Source of the DNA: a virus
Reading direction: 5' to 3' (one strand)
IMG/VR virus record: IMGVR_UViG_3300025127_000242
Span: 1-25,542 of that record
DNA length: 25,542 bases
Below the pieces are notes generated by a model. The model worked only from the letters and a program-made list of their open reading frames with translations. It was not told the origin of the DNA and ran no database searches. Of the stretch, positions 11,809 to 23,329 are shown in pieces. Every line of letters starts with the position of its first letter. Position 1 is the first letter of the stretch. The position numbers were made by a program, and so were the translations under genes.

Positions 11809-14697
11809 ATGGGCCAAGTATCGGTCAACACAAAGTACGGACCAATTGACTTTAAAATTATTGGTCAAGCTCCCACAATTGGCGAACGCATGGAAATTGA
11901 TAAGGTTATTGCAAATCCTCGTGCTTATTTGCCTCAAGAGGTAATCTCTGACTTCGACAAAAAACAAGAAGGTTTTGACCCTCAATTTGACGTTGAAACA
12001 GGCATTCAAGACCTTGGATTGCGCCGTGCTTTGAGCTTGGCTGATACAACTGAGGAAGAAGAAGCTGTTCTTGCCAATGAGGGATTAAAGCCAGAAGAAT
12101 ATATAAGAGATAGTCGTGGTCGCCTTGCCTTAACACCGTCTGGCGCAGCGCGTTTTGGCGTAGAAACAGACAAGAATGTTTTGATTGATGAATCCAAGTT
12201 TAGTCGTGCAGATTTAGCAGATTTAGCAGGTATAGGACCTGAAGTCGGTGGTGCAATTGCGGGTGCTATTGCGGGTCAAGCTGCAATACCTATTCCAATT
12301 CTTGGCGCTATAATCGGGGCTGGAATAGGCGGTGGTGGTGGTAATCTACTTGAAGAGGGCATTGAAGCCTCAATGGGTACATCCAAGCAGTCTGCATCAG
12401 AAATCGCTAAAGACACTCTTATAGAGGCAGGTATAGCCGCTGCGGGTGAAGGTATAGTTGGCCTTATCGGTAAGTCTTTTGGTGTTGTGGGGCGCGGTTT
12501 AGGGCCACAGAGATTAACGCAAGACCAAGCAAAGACAATAAAAGAAAGTTTAGAGATGGGCGTTGCTCCAGCGCCCGGTCTTGTCGGCGCTCCCGCTCTT
12601 ATTGCTCGGGCTGTTGCTACAGAGGAGCAAATTTTTAAAGGCTCCGCACGTACTCGTTCAAACAATGAAGCAATACAATCCGCATTAGATGATCTTCGTG
12701 CAAAGGCAGGGACCAGCGACCCGGATGCTCTAGGCCGAACAATTATATCGGCTGTGCAACAAGGGGATGAAACTCTGGGCCGAGCTGTTGATAATGCAGG
12801 TGTTGCTATACTTCGCGGTATGGAAAGCACTGCTAGTGATTTAGGTCGCGCAGCAACTAAAGATTTACAACTTGATGAAGACTTATACGGTGCATTTCGT
12901 GCGGCCTATGAAAACTTTGACAACATAGCACAAGCAAAATGGACTCGTATTGGACGTGCAATGGAAGAACCAATTGGAGATTCTAGATTTATCCCCACGC
13001 AAGACATTGCGAAAAAAGCACAAGATATGAGTAAAACTTTTAGAGCCGCTCAAACAGGAACAACTGGCGGCACTATGGAATCAATGCTTACAAATATAGG
13101 TAGGCTAGGTAAAAAATCTTCTTTTTCTGAACTTTATAACGCTCGTAAAAGTTTAAACGATTTGCTCCGCAACAACGCCCGTTCTCAAACAATTCAGCGT
13201 GAGGGTCGTGTTTTTCTTGATGCTTTAGACCGTAGATTAGAGTTATTAACAGATCCTAAAGCTATCGCATCATTTGCTGCAAACTCAGGTCGAAATATTG
13301 ATAACACAGCGTTAAAGAAAATTTCTGATGCAGCATCTGATCTGCGAGGTGCGCGTGAGTTTTATGAAAAAGGCATGAGATATTTTGATGAAGTAGGATC
13401 TGCTGCATCTATTCGCGCCATTCGGGAGGAGCTTAAAAATGGAGTGGTCCCAAGCGTTGAAGAAACTGTCTTTAAGCTCGTAAAACCAAATAAGCCAAGA
13501 TATTTGATTGCTGCTCGAACTTTGTTTGATGAGTTTGGAGGCAAAGGTTCTTTTGAATCTTTTCGTCAACGCATGGCATCACAATGGTTACGAAGCTCAT
13601 TAGAAAAATCTGTTAATTCAGCTCGTCCTGATAAATTCAGCGCGTCTGCATTTAACAAAGACGTTAAAAAATTAGGCACAACACTAGATCAATTGTTCGG
13701 GAAACAAGCAAATTCTGTTCGTAAGCTTGCTAATGAAATTGATGCTGTAAGTCTTCGCAACGTTGATCAAAGTGTAATTGATCGTGTAATTACATCTGGT
13801 GCAGATGAAAGCGCAGTTGGTTTATTGCGCAATTTAAAAGATGCTCAAAAAGAGGCTTCAGAGTTTGCGCGTGATAGAGCAATTAATGCATTTCGTCGTG
13901 AGGGACTTAGCCCACAAGAAGCCGCTGATTTGATTGTCAATGGCTCAACAAAGCCAACCACAATAACCAAGATTATGAAGTATTATAATAATTCTCCTGA
14001 AGCTATGCAGCAATTGCGTGGTACATATATGGAACATATCATTGGTGATTTTGGTGAAAGTTTTCTTGTTGAACCAAAACAGTTAAAGGCTTTTGGAACA
14101 AGACTTACAAAAGAATATGACACTGGAAAACTTGGTGCGGTTTTTGGCGATGAAATGGCAGAAGAAATGGCTAAGTTTGGTCGCGTTCTTACCTTTAATG
14201 CCCGTACTGTTGAGGGCGGTGGCCTTGTTGCTGCTAACATTGCGGCAAGTCCAGTCCAAAATCTTGGCAAGTTATTGCGATACAGTTTAATTGGTCGTGT
14301 CTTTTCAAGTCCATTGTTCTACAAAAACCTATCGAAGCGCGTAAACGCAATGACAGGTGAAGGTGTGTCTAAACCAGAAGCTATAGGCAGAATTATATCA
14401 CAAGCATTGTCTTCTGCTGTTGCGCAAACAAGCGCACAATCTATTGAAGAAAGTGTATCTGAGGTTTCAAAACAAAGTAGAGCATATCTTGATTCAATGG
14501 CAGAGCGTCAACAACGCCCACCTGCGAGTGAGCGGAAGCCAACATCCATAAGCCGAACAAATATTCAAGTTCCTGAAATACCCCCGGTACAAACACCTAA
14601 TATTTCGGATGTTACTAATATACGTCAACGCGCAAGAGAAAACCCAGCAGTGGCAGCAACACTACTGGGCGGTCTAGGAAGTGCAGGTTTGCTCTAG
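11809..14697 (+). CDS. Very large internal/ejection virion protein candidate, 962 aa
   Basis: Largest gene in the window. Residues about 100-140 hold DSRGRLALTPSGAARFGVET and FSRADLADLAGIG, and 141-228 a glycine-zipper region (GGAIAGAIAGQAAIPIPILG, then GAGIGGGGG) able to insert into membranes. The rest is helical and rich in Arg, Ala and Lys. T7 gp16 and P22 gp16 analogues, which leave the capsid and form a conduit for DNA, are of comparable character; I see no SLT/lysozyme motif (no clear catalytic Glu in an ES-type motif), so a peptidoglycan-cutting role is not supported. The last residues overlap the convergent ribbon-helix-helix gene by 4 bp through a shared CTAG. Confidence 0.65.
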   Translation: MGQVSVNTKYGPIDFKIIGQAPTIGERMEIDKVIANPRAYLPQEVISDFDKKQEGFDPQFDVETGIQDLGLRRALSLADTTEEEEAVLANEGLKPEEYIRDSRGRLALTPSGAARFGVETDKNVLIDESKFSRADLADLAGIGPEVGGAIAGAIAGQAAIPIPILGAIIGAGIGGGGGNLLEEGIEASMGTSKQSASEIAKDTLIEAGIAAAGEGIVGLIGKSFGVVGRGLGPQRLTQDQAKTIKESLEMGVAPAPGLVGAPALIARAVATEEQIFKGSARTRSNNEAIQSALDDLRAKAGTSDPDALGRTIISAVQQGDETLGRAVDNAGVAILRGMESTASDLGRAATKDLQLDEDLYGAFRAAYENFDNIAQAKWTRIGRAMEEPIGDSRFIPTQDIAKKAQDMSKTFRAAQTGTTGGTMESMLTNIGRLGKKSSFSELYNARKSLNDLLRNNARSQTIQREGRVFLDALDRRLELLTDPKAIASFAANSGRNIDNTALKKISDAASDLRGAREFYEKGMRYFDEVGSAASIRAIREELKNGVVPSVEETVFKLVKPNKPRYLIAARTLFDEFGGKGSFESFRQRMASQWLRSSLEKSVNSARPDKFSASAFNKDVKKLGTTLDQLFGKQANSVRKLANEIDAVSLRNVDQSVIDRVITSGADESAVGLLRNLKDAQKEASEFARDRAINAFRREGLSPQEAADLIVNGSTKPTTITKIMKYYNNSPEAMQQLRGTYMEHIIGDFGESFLVEPKQLKAFGTRLTKEYDTGKLGAVFGDEMAEEMAKFGRVLTFNARTVEGGGLVAANIAASPVQNLGKLLRYSLIGRVFSSPLFYKNLSKRVNAMTGEGVSKPEAIGRIISQALSSAVAQTSAQSIEESVSEVSKQSRAYLDSMAERQQRPPASERKPTSISRTNIQVPEIPPVQTPNISDVTNIRQRARENPAVAATLLGGLGSAGLL

Positions 14698-14918
14698 TCT
14701 TCTAGTGCAGAGGCAATGCCGCCTAAATTATGTCTCCTGTCGTAACGAGCAGCTAACCTAGTCTGTACGTCTTCATAAGCATCATCAATCATACGTGATA
14801 ATTGACGTCCAATGGCACGATCTTCGTGGTCTGCTATTTTTACTAATTTATCGTAAGCATCTATTGAAACACCTACAGATTTATATTTTACTGGATTCGG
14901 CATGGAGGATTTTCCCAT
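14694..14918 (-). CDS. Ribbon-helix-helix (RHH) DNA-binding protein, likely repressor
   Basis: 74 aa on the - strand between two + strand blocks. The segment YKSVGVSIDAYDKLVKIADH followed by RAIGRQLSRMIDDAYEDV is a typical RHH fold: one strand (residues about 12-18), helix A (20-31) and helix B (37-50) with the usual G-x-x-hinge. RHH dimers bind short repeated sites. Its own promoter (14935-14963) and both divergent promoters 0.8 kb away share TCCCAT/TCCCAA elements, so it is the obvious candidate regulator of this region. Start at 14918; a second ATG at 14903 is less likely. It is divergent from the next gene with start codons 2 bp apart. Confidence 0.75.
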   Translation of the reverse strand: MGKSSMPNPVKYKSVGVSIDAYDKLVKIADHEDRAIGRQLSRMIDDAYEDVQTRLAARYDRRHNLGGIASALED

Positions 14919-14920
14919 AA

Positions 14921-15298
14921 ATGACGTTTCCTACTGTATATAATCCCAAGAGGCGTGGGTCAAGACCCAAGTATGGTAACAAGAAAGTAACTGTGCAGGG
15001 AATTAAATTCGACTCTAAGTGGGAGTCACAGCGTTACTTGTATCTCAAATCACTCGAACGCGCAGATCAGGTTAAGGACCTTGAGCTACAGGTGCGCTAC
15101 AATATAGCAGTCAACGGTGAGAAGATTTGTGCTTACGTTGCTGACTTTCGATACCAAAAACAAAACAAAGACGGTGATTGGTATGAAGTGGTTGAAGATG
15201 CCAAGGGTGTTGAGACTCCAGAGTTTAAATTAAAAAAGAAATTGATGAAAGCCGTTCACGGTATCGAAATATTCTTGTCAAAAAAGGGGGGGCGCTAA
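14921..15298 (+). CDS. DUF1064-type PD-(D/E)XK nuclease
   Basis: 125 aa; ATG with GGAGG at 14904-14908. Sequence shows the DUF1064 pattern: KYGNKKVTVQGIKFDSKWES (Glu35), CAYVADFRY (Asp75) and VVEDAKG (Asp93, Lys95), i.e. the E...D...(D/E)xK arrangement of restriction-like nucleases. Members of this family occur in phage recombination or replication clusters and have been suggested as structure-specific (junction or flap) endonucleases; that activity is inferred here. It is separated from the rest of the replication operon by a - strand gene, and its stop codon lies in the loop of the terminator of that gene. A basic tail (LKKKLMK, FLSKKGGR) may bind DNA. Confidence 0.78.
   Translation: MTFPTVYNPKRRGSRPKYGNKKVTVQGIKFDSKWESQRYLYLKSLERADQVKDLELQVRYNIAVNGEKICAYVADFRYQKQNKDGDWYEVVEDAKGVETPEFKLKKKLMKAVHGIEIFLSKKGGR
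14935..14963 (-). promoter_or_regulatory. Candidate sigma70 promoter of the RHH gene, with operator-like spacer
   Basis: Read on the - strand: TTGACC (14963-14958), 17-bp spacer, TATACA (14940-14935). The spacer contains CTTGGGATTA, and TTATGGGAAA covers the start codon (14921-14911). Both resemble the paired elements at 15733-15751 and 15800-15819. The promoter lies inside the coding sequence of the divergent nuclease gene. Predicted transcript leader is about 10 nt. Autoregulation is an inference. Confidence 0.5.
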
Positions 15299-15304
15299 CC
15301 CCCC
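15280..15304 (-). terminator. Rho-independent terminator of the 114-aa gene
   Basis: On the - strand the sequence reads GGGGGG TTAGCG CCCCCCC TTTTTT: a 6-bp all-GC stem, a 6-nt loop and six T. It starts 8 bp after the stop codon of 15312-15656. On the + strand no T-run follows, so it should act mainly on leftward transcription. It overlaps the 3' end of the + strand nuclease gene. Confidence 0.8.
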
Positions 15305-15311
15305 TCTACGA

Positions 15312-15656
15312 TCAGCTGATCTGCACATTATTGCAAATGTGGTCCATCAGCTTTTTAGCTTGTTTGGCAAAGTATTTGCCACCTGCGACAATATTGGGAT
15401 CGTCATCCCAATGACCTTCGCGGTAATCAATGTCAGCGCGATTATCTAAATCGCCCTGAAATACAAGCATTACGTCAATATCAACTTGCGTTGATGGCTT
15501 AATCTTCCCGTCTAGGAAGTTATTAAGAAACGTGACGTATTGATTACGTAGCGGCTGATCAATTGTATCAGCACATTCAATGAAGTGCGAGACTTCAGAT
15601 TGAGTGTAGGATTTCTGACCACGGAAGATCAGGCCGAAGGGGATAGTGTTAGACAT
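15312..15656 (-). CDS. Hypothetical acidic protein, 114 aa, single-gene - strand unit
   Basis: Soluble, acidic protein with no recognised domain. Visible segments: IPFGLIFRGQKSYTQSEVSH, LRNQYVTFLNNFLDGKI, a DIDVMLVFQGDLDNRADIDY stretch and a C-terminal helix KYFAKQAKKLMDHICNNV. It has its own promoter (15739-15767), a structured leader and its own terminator (15280-15304), so it is made independently of the + strand genes. A stand-alone, tightly controlled small gene beside a divergent replication promoter is where a phage regulator or an early host-takeover protein would sit, but the sequence itself gives no function. Confidence 0.72.
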   Translation of the reverse strand: MSNTIPFGLIFRGQKSYTQSEVSHFIECADTIDQPLRNQYVTFLNNFLDGKIKPSTQVDIDVMLVFQGDLDNRADIDYREGHWDDDPNIVAGGKYFAKQAKKLMDHICNNVQIS

Positions 15657-15660
15657 GGCA

Positions 15661-15724
15661 TACTCCTTTCAGAGTACAAGGGAGGCTTTCGCCTCGGTTG
15701 AAAATAAGAGAGCTAGAAACTCTC
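15661..15724 (-). promoter_or_regulatory. Structured mRNA leader with three hairpins
   Basis: In the roughly 75-nt leader of the 114-aa gene (read on the - strand) I see three stem-loops. GAGAG...CTCTC (15724-15708) is followed by TTATTTT. GAGGC-GAAA-GCCTC (15695-15682) has a GNRA-type loop. TACTC-TGAAAG-GAGTA (15676-15661) has a 3' arm that contains the ribosome binding site AAGGAG. The last could limit translation; the first could act as an attenuator. Effects are inferred from pairing only. Confidence 0.55.
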
Positions 15725-15732
15725 ATCCTCTA

Positions 15733-15819
15733 TATCCCATAATATCCCAAATTAAATGAAATGTCAATAAAAAAATTTATGTAAAAAGTCTGTTGACATG
15801 TCCCAAGCCATATGGGATA
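15733..15819. promoter_or_regulatory. Operator-like TCCCAT/TCCCAA elements between divergent promoters
   Basis: Four elements: TATCCCATA (15733-15741), TATCCCAAA (15743-15751, exactly 10 bp on), TGTCCCAAGC (15799-15808) and, inverted, TATGGGATA (15811-15819). The first two cover the -10 region of the leftward promoter; the last two form the inverted repeat TCCCA-N7-TGGGA (15801-15817) between -35 and -10 of the rightward promoter. Each promoter has one TCCCAT and one TCCCAA type. A bound dimer at either pair would block RNA polymerase. The RHH protein is the likely binder (inference). Confidence 0.6.
15739..15767 (-). promoter_or_regulatory. Sigma70 promoter of the 114-aa gene
   Basis: On the - strand: TTGACA (15767-15762), 17-bp spacer, TATTAT (15744-15739). 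The -35 is a perfect consensus and the -10 matches at five of six positions. Start of transcription is expected about 15732, giving a leader of roughly 75 nt. Confidence 0.72.
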
Positions 15820-15821
15820 GA
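15793..15821 (+). promoter_or_regulatory. Promoter of the replication operon
   Basis: Perfect -35 TTGACA (15793-15798), then 17 bp to GATAGA (15816-15821), a weak -10. Expected start is near 15828, about 30 nt before the 132-aa gene. The spacer contains the TCCCA...TGGGA inverted repeat. A weak -10 with a perfect -35 fits a promoter that is regulated or helped by a phage protein. Confidence 0.55.
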
Positions 15822-15857
15822 TAGGGTTCTAGTAATTTAAAGCGGAAAGGAATCGAC

Positions 15858-16256
15858 ATGAATAGTCGTGAACTATTTGAACGTAGAAGTGAACTCAAGC
15901 ACGTTATTAATGAAATGCGCGATGAGTTGAAAAATGTTGAACAGCAACTGCATGATATATTCTTTGATCAAGCGCGTGATGCTTTACGTGCAGATGGCAA
16001 AGACTTTGGCACTACGCATATCGTTGCTGGCAATAAAAAATTAAAAGCCACAGTGCGTAAGAAAGTTGTGTGGGATCAAACCACATTAGGCAACGTCTTG
16101 GAAGAGATGGATGCCGAAGATGCACGTCATTATGGCAAGCTAACACTTGCTGTTGACGAACGTAAATACACAGCAGCACCACCAGCTATTAGGTCATTGC
16201 TTCAAACCTGCCGCACAGTAGAGGTGGGTGGATTTACAATTGAGGAGGAAGACTAA
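15858..16256 (+). CDS. Hypothetical early protein, 132 aa, first gene of replication operon
   Basis: AAAGGAATCGAC precedes the ATG. The N-terminal 50 residues are a charged coiled coil (RRSELKHVINEMRDELKNVE). A compact C-terminal part follows, with GTTHIVAGNKKLKATVRKKV, WDQTTLGNVLEEM and a GGFTIEEED acidic tail. Genes of this kind directly precede Sak4-like ATPase genes in other phages as far as I recall, which would suggest a recombination accessory or DNA-binding role; this is not verified. Its stop overlaps the ATPase start by one base (TAATG). Confidence 0.7.
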   Translation: MNSRELFERRSELKHVINEMRDELKNVEQQLHDIFFDQARDALRADGKDFGTTHIVAGNKKLKATVRKKVVWDQTTLGNVLEEMDAEDARHYGKLTLAVDERKYTAAPPAIRSLLQTCRTVEVGGFTIEEED

Positions 16257-17128
16257 TGGCTTTGCAAATTATTACAGCCGATCAGCGTTTAGCTGAAAAG
16301 AAAGGTCACAAAATCGTAGTATGCGGTCAAAGCGGTGTGGGTAAAACCACACTCGCTAGGACACTGAATGGTGGAAGCACACTGTTTATGGACTTGGAAG
16401 CAGGGGATGCTGCTATCGAAGGTTTTCCAATTGATGTCATTCGTCCTCAAACATGGTCAGAGTGTCGTGATCTTGCTTGTTTCTTGGGTGGTCCAAATCC
16501 GGGATTAAGTGAGGACCAACCTTATAGCCAAGCGCATTATGATTATGTAGCTACGATGTTTGGAGACAGCACAGAGGTGTGGCAGAAGTACGATTCTCTT
16601 TTTGTGGACTCTATTACCGTGGCAGGTCGTTTGTGCTTTCAGTGGTGCTTACAGCAGCCAGAATCACGTTCTGATCGCTCTGGTAAGCTCGACACTCGCG
16701 CAGCTTATGGAATGCATGGTCGAGAAATGATGTCATGGCTAACACATCTTCAGCATATCCGCGAAAAGAACGTAATCTTTGTTGGCATTCTTGATGAAAT
16801 CACAGATGATTATGGACGCAAGCAATATGCGTTACAAATTGAAGGCAGCAAAACTGGGCGAGAATTGCCCGGAATTGTTGATGAGGTAATTACAATGGCG
16901 ATTTTATCAGGGGATCATGGTCAATATCGTGCTTTTGTTTGTCAGCCATTGAATGAATGGGGATACCCAGCAAAAGATCGCTCTGGTCGCCTCGAAACTT
17001 TAGAAGAGCCGCATCTTGGCAAACTGATGGAAAAGATGTCAAGTGGTTCTCCAGAAGAAATAAAGGATCTGACTTTTGTAGATCCTTCAACACAAGTTAC
17101 TAGCGAAGAGGAAGCACAAAATGCTTAA
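16256..17128 (+). CDS. Sak4-like P-loop ATPase (phage recombinase family)
   Basis: 290 aa. Walker A is GQSGVGKT at residues 24-31 and Walker B is YDSLFVDSI at 112-120, with a further FMDLEAGDAAIEGFP motif at 44-58 (substrate/ATPase core). This combination, single RecA-like core and length near 250-300 aa, matches Sak4/AAA_24 phage ATPases, which promote single-strand annealing together with a single-strand DNA binding protein. The next gene, overlapping by 8 bp, is such a binding-protein candidate, so the pair should act together in recombination-dependent replication. C-terminal tail is acidic (EEEAQNA). Family fairly certain; in vivo role inferred. Confidence 0.78.
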   Translation: MALQIITADQRLAEKKGHKIVVCGQSGVGKTTLARTLNGGSTLFMDLEAGDAAIEGFPIDVIRPQTWSECRDLACFLGGPNPGLSEDQPYSQAHYDYVATMFGDSTEVWQKYDSLFVDSITVAGRLCFQWCLQQPESRSDRSGKLDTRAAYGMHGREMMSWLTHLQHIREKNVIFVGILDEITDDYGRKQYALQIEGSKTGRELPGIVDEVITMAILSGDHGQYRAFVCQPLNEWGYPAKDRSGRLETLEEPHLGKLMEKMSSGSPEEIKDLTFVDPSTQVTSEEEAQNA

Positions 17129-23249: not shown

Positions 23250-23278
23250 TTGACTGCTGTGGGAATATTTGGTATAAA
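23250..23278 (+). promoter_or_regulatory. Sigma70 promoter of the DUF3846 operon
   Basis: TTGACT (23250-23255), 17-bp spacer, TATAAA (23273-23278), each matching consensus at five of six positions. TGG before the -10 gives an extended -10. Expected start is near 23285, leaving a leader of about 97 nt. Confidence 0.7.
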
Positions 23279-23329
23279 TCCCATGCGACAGGGTTTTTTC
23301 CTCCGAGATGCTACCCGAATTGACACTTT

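Follow-up and report, generated by a model that had tools for sequence, protein, structure and literature searches.

The promoters around a small minus-strand gene of this virus carry the same short elements in pairs, which raises the question of what reads these elements, and at how many promoters. A sequence-only reading had answered with a compact self-regulating switch: three promoters, each with one TCCCAT and one TCCCAA element, read by the product of a ribbon-helix-helix (RHH) gene and controlling replication genes and one gene of unknown function. The timing of gene expression by lytic phages without their own RNA polymerase is poorly known in marine bacteria, and an operator whose spacing follows a simple rule and can be read from sequence offers an early-gene switch open to testing, together with a list of targets that includes unknown host-takeover candidates.

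The window, i.e., the whole stretch of DNA analysed, is a virus record of 25.5 kb (25,542 nucleotides), for which a close cultured relative was not found. Up to 14.7 kb it holds tail and internal virion genes. These are followed, in order, by the small minus-strand gene, a DUF1064 gene, a minus-strand gene of 114 aa, and a replication/recombination operon encoding a 132-aa protein, a Sak4-like ATPase, a helicase, a Cas4-type exonuclease, and a primase/helicase. About 140 related contig stretches were gathered at first and further ones were added later. Ten relatives of 35–56 kb and the window formed the genome-wide set, and four cultured relatives the comparison set. The terminase and portal of a 56-kb relative (G001) were closest to those of Pelagibacter phages HTVC023P and HTVC027P, phage 023Pt_psg01, phage DSL-LC04, and Roseobacter phages CRP-901 and CRP-902. 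The phage group is uncultured, marine, and tailed.

Paired half-sites at the promoters of the window

All six strings of the earlier reading were present in the window (TTTCCCATAAA at 14911, TAATCCCAAG at 14941, TATCCCATA at 15733, TATCCCAAA at 15743, TGTCCCAAGC at 15799, and TATGGGATA at 15811), and paired elements are indeed common to the three promoters it named. The relevant unit is the half-site TCCCA (TGGGA on the other strand). The base after CCCA varies freely in relatives, so that the rule of one TCCCAT and one TCCCAA per promoter fails there. The geometry differs as well: the pair is a direct repeat at 31 bp before the small gene, a direct repeat at 10 bp before the 114-aa gene, and convergent at 12 bp before the replication operon. 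A fixed 21-bp palindrome was rejected as the operator, being just one among several geometries. Element frequency alone was also discarded as evidence, since the window counts are not enriched over shuffles: TCCCAW occurs 29 times against 25.0 ± 4.6 expected (22 of 100 shuffles reach 29), and WTCCCAWR 13 times against 7.4 ± 2.9 (6 of 100 shuffles). The case therefore rests on arrangement and conservation.

The promoter of the small gene (14935–14963, minus strand) consists of TTGACC (14963–14958), a 17-bp spacer, and TATACA (14940–14935). It lies within the 5′ end of the DUF1064, or Holliday junction resolvase-like, gene (14921–15298, plus strand; Pfam PF06356, 2.3e-19; phrog_190, 1.2e-34). 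The half-site in its spacer (TGGGA, 14944–14948, minus strand) thus sits in DUF1064 coding sequence rather than in intergenic DNA. A second TGGGA (14913–14917, minus strand) lies in the leader, 31 bp from the first. The sequence-only reading had proposed to follow the elements with the gene through relatives. A homologue of the gene is encoded in all 91 distinct loci spanning the slot, and all 91 keep the spacer site. The leader site is kept in 89, at 31 bp from the spacer site in 77 loci and at 30 bp in 12, and is absent from two (L139/L140 type). Elements missing where the gene is kept, the outcome that would have spoken against the proposal, were looked for in these 91 loci and did not occur. 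The leader element overlaps the likely ribosome-binding region of the small gene and may double as its ribosome-binding sequence, for which reason it is the weaker evidence of the two.

The DUF1064 coding sequence bears an imprint of this promoter. Codons 6, 8, 9, 12, 13, 14, and 16 showed essentially zero synonymous change over 69 sequences, and synonymous differences amounted to 0.13 of the expected number in codons 6–16 versus 0.73 in the remaining codons. When the columns were shuffled 20,000 times, no 11-codon stretch ever fell to the minimum seen in the real alignment, and the frozen block coincides with the minus-strand TTGACC-17-TATACA promoter. An inverted repeat with 6-bp arms, TGGGTC-AA-GACCCA (14956–14969), covers the −35 box of the same promoter and is kept in most relatives within DUF1064 coding sequence; it could be a further binding element.

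The replication promoter (15793–15821, plus strand) is conserved in relatives and has TTGACA (15793–15798), a 17-bp spacer, and a weak −10 box, GATAGA (15816–15821). TCCCA (site 1, 15801–15805) and a convergent TGGGA (site 2, 15813–15817), 12 bp apart, are followed 10 bp after site 2, at offset 22, by a weak third half-site, AGGGT (site 3, 15823–15827); all three are given on the plus strand. A half-site lies within 45 bp of TTGAC in each of 55 distinct replication promoters. Counted from TTGAC, 26 have TCCCA at +8 and TGGGA at +20, 15 have TGGGA at +31, and eight have TCCCA at +10; the remaining six show other single or paired arrangements. These offsets were computed. As an interpretation, the shifts between classes fit a frame of three sites at offsets 0, 12, and 22, of which different viruses keep different strong ones: sites 1 and 2 in the window, 1 and 3 in L072, and 3 in the L051 class.

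The first gene of the operon (15858–16256, plus strand; 132 aa) matches phrog_2480 (8.8e-15), and the next one, the Sak4-like ATPase, matches phrog_124 (4e-47). The Sak4-like protein (16256–17128) is about 48–56% identical to proteins of Acidithiobacillus phage AcaML1 and Wolbachia phage WO, which is unexpectedly close for such different hosts. The word TCTAGTA or TCTAGCA recurs directly downstream of operator-bearing promoters, before the ribosome-binding site; its TCTAG core is at 15828–15832 in the window, and many promoters have it 35–40 bp from the first base of TTGAC. The idea that CTAG is a special, depleted word was rejected, as the genome-wide counts show no depletion.

The 114-aa gene (15312–15656, minus strand) has no Pfam or PHROG match. 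Its promoter (15739–15767, minus strand) is TTGACA (15767–15762), 17 bp, and TATTAT (15744–15739). One TGGGA overlaps the end of the −10 box, at the discriminator position (15735–15739), and another, 10 bp away, lies at the end of the spacer (15745–15749), both on the minus strand. At least four interchangeable cassettes, the 114-aa gene being one, occupy this slot, which in other relatives is filled by unrelated genes of 133/148, 67, or 87 aa. Many relatives lack the 114-aa gene, among them L002, whose regulator is identical, and many relatives without a cassette still keep the small gene and the other elements; in these, the stop codon of DUF1064 falls within the replication promoter's TTGACA. 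A minus-strand TTGACA promoter precedes each of the 16 distinct cassettes; it always carries one perfect half-site or more, and in most cases two, at offsets of 10, 12, or 22 bp. Being swapped or absent in relatives, the gene is an accessory in a hot spot under shared control and not a fixed partner. This accessory-gene hot spot spans 15299–15792, between the DUF1064 gene and the replication operon, and the same slot is seen in L009, L013, L023, L058, L064, and L225. The leader of the 114-aa gene (15708–15724) contains a possible small hairpin, GAGAG-TTTCTAG-CTCTC on the minus strand, that is kept in several cassettes.

A virus-wide set of sites

The search beyond these promoters revealed a fourth one in the window that had been overlooked, TTGACT-17-TATAAA (23250–23283, plus strand), with TGGGA (23260–23264), TGGTA (23270–23274), and TCCCA (23279–23283). 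This arrangement recurs in G001, G004, G007, and G008. Throughout the ten long relatives, half-sites recur at many promoters at offsets of 10, 12, 22, and 31. The compact three-promoter switch thus gives way to a virus-wide set, with at least four promoters in the window and many in relatives. A self-regulating circuit that includes the replication promoter is still plausible, although it is not confined to three promoters.

Chance does not account for these numbers. Non-coding half-sites were 2.6 times the expectation (82 vs. 31) in seven long relatives and the window. In the non-redundant intergenic DNA of the eleven genomes, the TCCCA direct repeat at offset 10 ranked first of all combinations of 5-mer, orientation, and offset, with 11 pairs against a rough estimate of about 0.14 expected. 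Intergenic operator-like pairs exceeded the shuffle mean in every genome, by about five- to seventy-fold, with small counts in some. The ten long relatives and the window hold 39 perfect pairs, whereas no perfect TCCCA pair was found in the four cultured relatives, which lack a close homologue of the small gene. Over 29 promoter clusters, the pair offsets were 10 (13 clusters), 22 (four), 12 (three), and 30/31 (three), with others scattered. Sites, spacing rule, conservation, virus-wide distribution, and the constraint on the DUF1064 codons are all direct observations. The set can also be seen as a natural experiment in the movement of sites by whole helical turns, and it marks an accessory-gene slot whose cargo is under the same control.

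The set is selective, since other promoters in the same genomes carry no sites; one example is a conserved TTGACC-18-TATAAG/TATAAT promoter before a structural-region gene. The operator-bearing targets comprise gamma-glutamyl cyclotransferase-like genes and many small genes of unknown function. In G001, two 118-aa genes that closely resemble each other (543–896 and about 55874–56230) lie one at each end of the 56-kb record; both follow an operator-bearing promoter, and the geometry of the two promoters differs. The gamma-glutamyl cyclotransferase-like gene beside these genes is likewise present twice.

The putative small regulator gene and its fold

The putative small regulator, termed RHH-like by pattern only, is the candidate binder of the half-sites (14694–14903, minus strand; MPNPVKYKSVGVSIDAYDKL...). 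The sequence-only reading had given it 74 aa from a start at 14918; the conserved start is the ATG at 14903, which yields a protein of 69 aa (MPNP...). At its N-terminus, the MPNP/MPKP start and residues K6, Y7, K8, and S9 are conserved, and this basic KYKS segment, invariant among homologues, stands where the strand of an RHH protein would contact DNA.

The assignment to the RHH class was plausible by pattern: the hydrophobic residues and turns align by eye with CopG-type proteins. Weak matches point the same way, to RHH_7 of Pfam in four of 23 family members (E = 0.13) and to the Arc-like phrog_6506 in one (E = 0.14). The window protein itself has no RHH match at E ≤ 0.1 in Pfam or PHROGs, no significant match to a profile of the RHH (Arc/MetJ/CopG) families was obtained, and searches of Pfam, PHROGs, NCBIfam, and PDB sequences did not confirm the fold. 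In hhalign comparisons with RHH_1 (27 proteins), the local mode did no better than shuffles, and in global mode three of 100 shuffles scored as well. Two AlphaFold monomer models of low confidence, built on shallow alignments, had pLDDT values of 67.8 and 60.3 and one long helix after residue 13, which did not confirm the fold either. An RHH fold thus stays plausible for the 69-aa protein as judged from its sequence.

Pelagibacter phage HTVC027P encodes a distant homologue, gp21 (59 aa; L337 11641–11817), which has the same KYKS start and is 48% identical over 37 residues; its profile score was 23.8, while decoys reached 9.9 at most. TAATCCTATATGATTA is present in the promoter region of gp21. 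A related operator for gp21 was considered and rejected, as this is a single palindrome and a dispersed set was not seen. The main text of the HTVC027P transcriptome paper does not mention gp21.

Proposed repression of early promoters and its alternatives

On balance, we favor, by a modest degree, the reading that the half-sites are the dispersed operator of this phage group and that the 69-aa protein binds them and represses early promoters; binder, repression, and timing are what we infer from the observations above. Pairs or triplets of half-sites, at least one helical turn apart (10, 12, 22, or 31 bp), overlap sigma70 promoters of the host type that serve early, accessory, and replication genes. 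Dimers of the 69-aa protein would cooperate in binding to these half-sites along one face of the helix and would block RNA polymerase. Strong early promoters would fire straight after infection, the protein would accumulate, and it would then shut off the early genes together with its own.

The sites lie in the spacer, at the −10 box, or just past it, in promoters near the sigma70 consensus. This geometry over core promoters fits steric repression, and with core promoters so near consensus most would need no activator. The 69-aa gene is the natural candidate for the binder because of its autoregulatory architecture, the same sites being present at its own and at several early promoters, its universal presence, and its invariant basic KYKS. 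No other clear regulator was found among the first 25 Pfam and PHROG families listed for two long relatives, in which the HTH matches coincide with a terminase small subunit match. Among the matches listed for G001 and G002 there was no RNA polymerase gene, and the 25 family matches listed first for these genomes included no integrase or CI-like gene. CRP-901 and CRP-902 lack an RNA polymerase gene and have been described as strictly lytic phages (PMC10149686). Since no polymerase is present in these phages or listed for G001 and G002, early transcription by the host polymerase, followed by shut-off by a small protein, would be the simplest reading.

The half-sites might instead be a real operator for a different binder, another unannotated small early phage protein, with the 69-aa protein in some other role. 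Small early ORFs mostly lack a family assignment, and the searches did not confirm an RHH fold for the 69-aa protein, but its gene is present in 91 of 91 loci, its own promoter has the most strictly conserved pair, and KYKS is invariant; we consider this alternative unlikely. Somewhat less likely still is that the 69-aa protein binds the sites as an activator or dual regulator rather than as a repressor. The −10 box of the replication promoter is poor (GATAGA/GATAGG/GACAAG), which can signal dependence on activation, and a dual role has been reported for the archaeal viral RHH protein AvtR (PMC5569661). Against this, the sites overlap spacer, −10 box, and discriminator, and the other targets mostly have near-consensus promoters.

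It is improbable that the sites are basal elements read by the host RNA polymerase, that is, a GGGA discriminator and a ribosome-binding sequence, with no operator at all. The GGGA discriminator is contacted by region 1.2 of sigma. TGGGA comes immediately after the −10 hexamer in several promoters (TATTATGGGA, TAATGTGGGA), where it could partly serve as a sigma-factor contact, and the leader site of the small gene has the expected position of a ribosome-binding sequence. However, such a discriminator would sit just downstream of −10 in a single orientation, which is true of just one member of some pairs: each pair has a second site upstream of −10, both orientations occur, and four cultured relatives have no pairs. 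In addition, the 10-bp spacing is kept while the position of the pair relative to the −35 box shifts (8/18 or 18/28), which points to a separate binding protein and not to RNA polymerase. A host-encoded regulator through which the phage senses the state of its host is very improbable; it would be compatible with the sequence, but the sites are missing from relatives whose structural genes are similar, they go together with one phage gene, and we know of no regulator with such a site.

The preferred reading, repression by the 69-aa protein, has counterparts among known systems. Stoperators of mycobacteriophages (L5/D29 group) are also operator copies dispersed over a phage genome and read by one repressor, and the present sites share with them the many genome-wide copies beyond chance. 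Stoperators have their role in lysogeny, and many are not located at promoters, whereas the present sites overlap promoters, in phages without lysogeny genes among the matches listed. In RHH proteins of the MetJ/Arc/CopG type, dimers cooperate on short half-sites about one helical turn apart. The half-site pairs described here are spaced in a similar way; they differ in half-site sequence and in the mix of direct and inverted arrangements, and the 69-aa protein does not score as a member.

A close parallel in promoter-level repression logic is F55 of SSV1 (PMC5569661), which is also a small virus-encoded protein with tandem short repeats over several early promoters and its own, in numbers that vary by promoter. 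It differs in its archaeal host and promoters, in maintaining a lysogenic state, in its repeats (ATAGATAG), and in having an established fold, unlike the 69-aa protein. SvtR of SIRV1, an RHH autorepressor (PMC5569661), is likewise small and virus-encoded and represses, besides its own gene, a few promoters of the virus; in contrast, it is archaeal, has about four sites with an imperfect inverted repeat, and has no virus-wide set of phased half-sites. Small viral repressors with tandem operators are thus already known. As far as a limited literature search shows, what is new is a virus-wide operator frame in lytic-looking bacterial phages, the turnover of sites by helical steps, and the attached cassette slot. 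A bolder proposal, which we hold only tentatively and rate as doubtful, is that the KYKS protein is the founding member of a family of small master regulators in phages, distinct from the known RHH families and with gp21 of HTVC027P as a distant homologue. In a widespread group of lytic marine phages, the protein would control the majority of early promoters by way of a modular lattice, with 5-bp half-sites set at 10-bp steps and site strength shuffled between positions in evolution.

Among cultured phages, CRP-901/902 and HTVC023P/027P have related terminase and portal genes, and CRP-902 also a related helicase and exonuclease, but they have no TCCCA pairs. Divergent from its replication operon, CRP-902 carries a Cro/CI-type HTH gene (L340 5411–5590), where the present phages have the RHH-like gene and the DUF1064 gene; its position suggests a replacement of the regulator.
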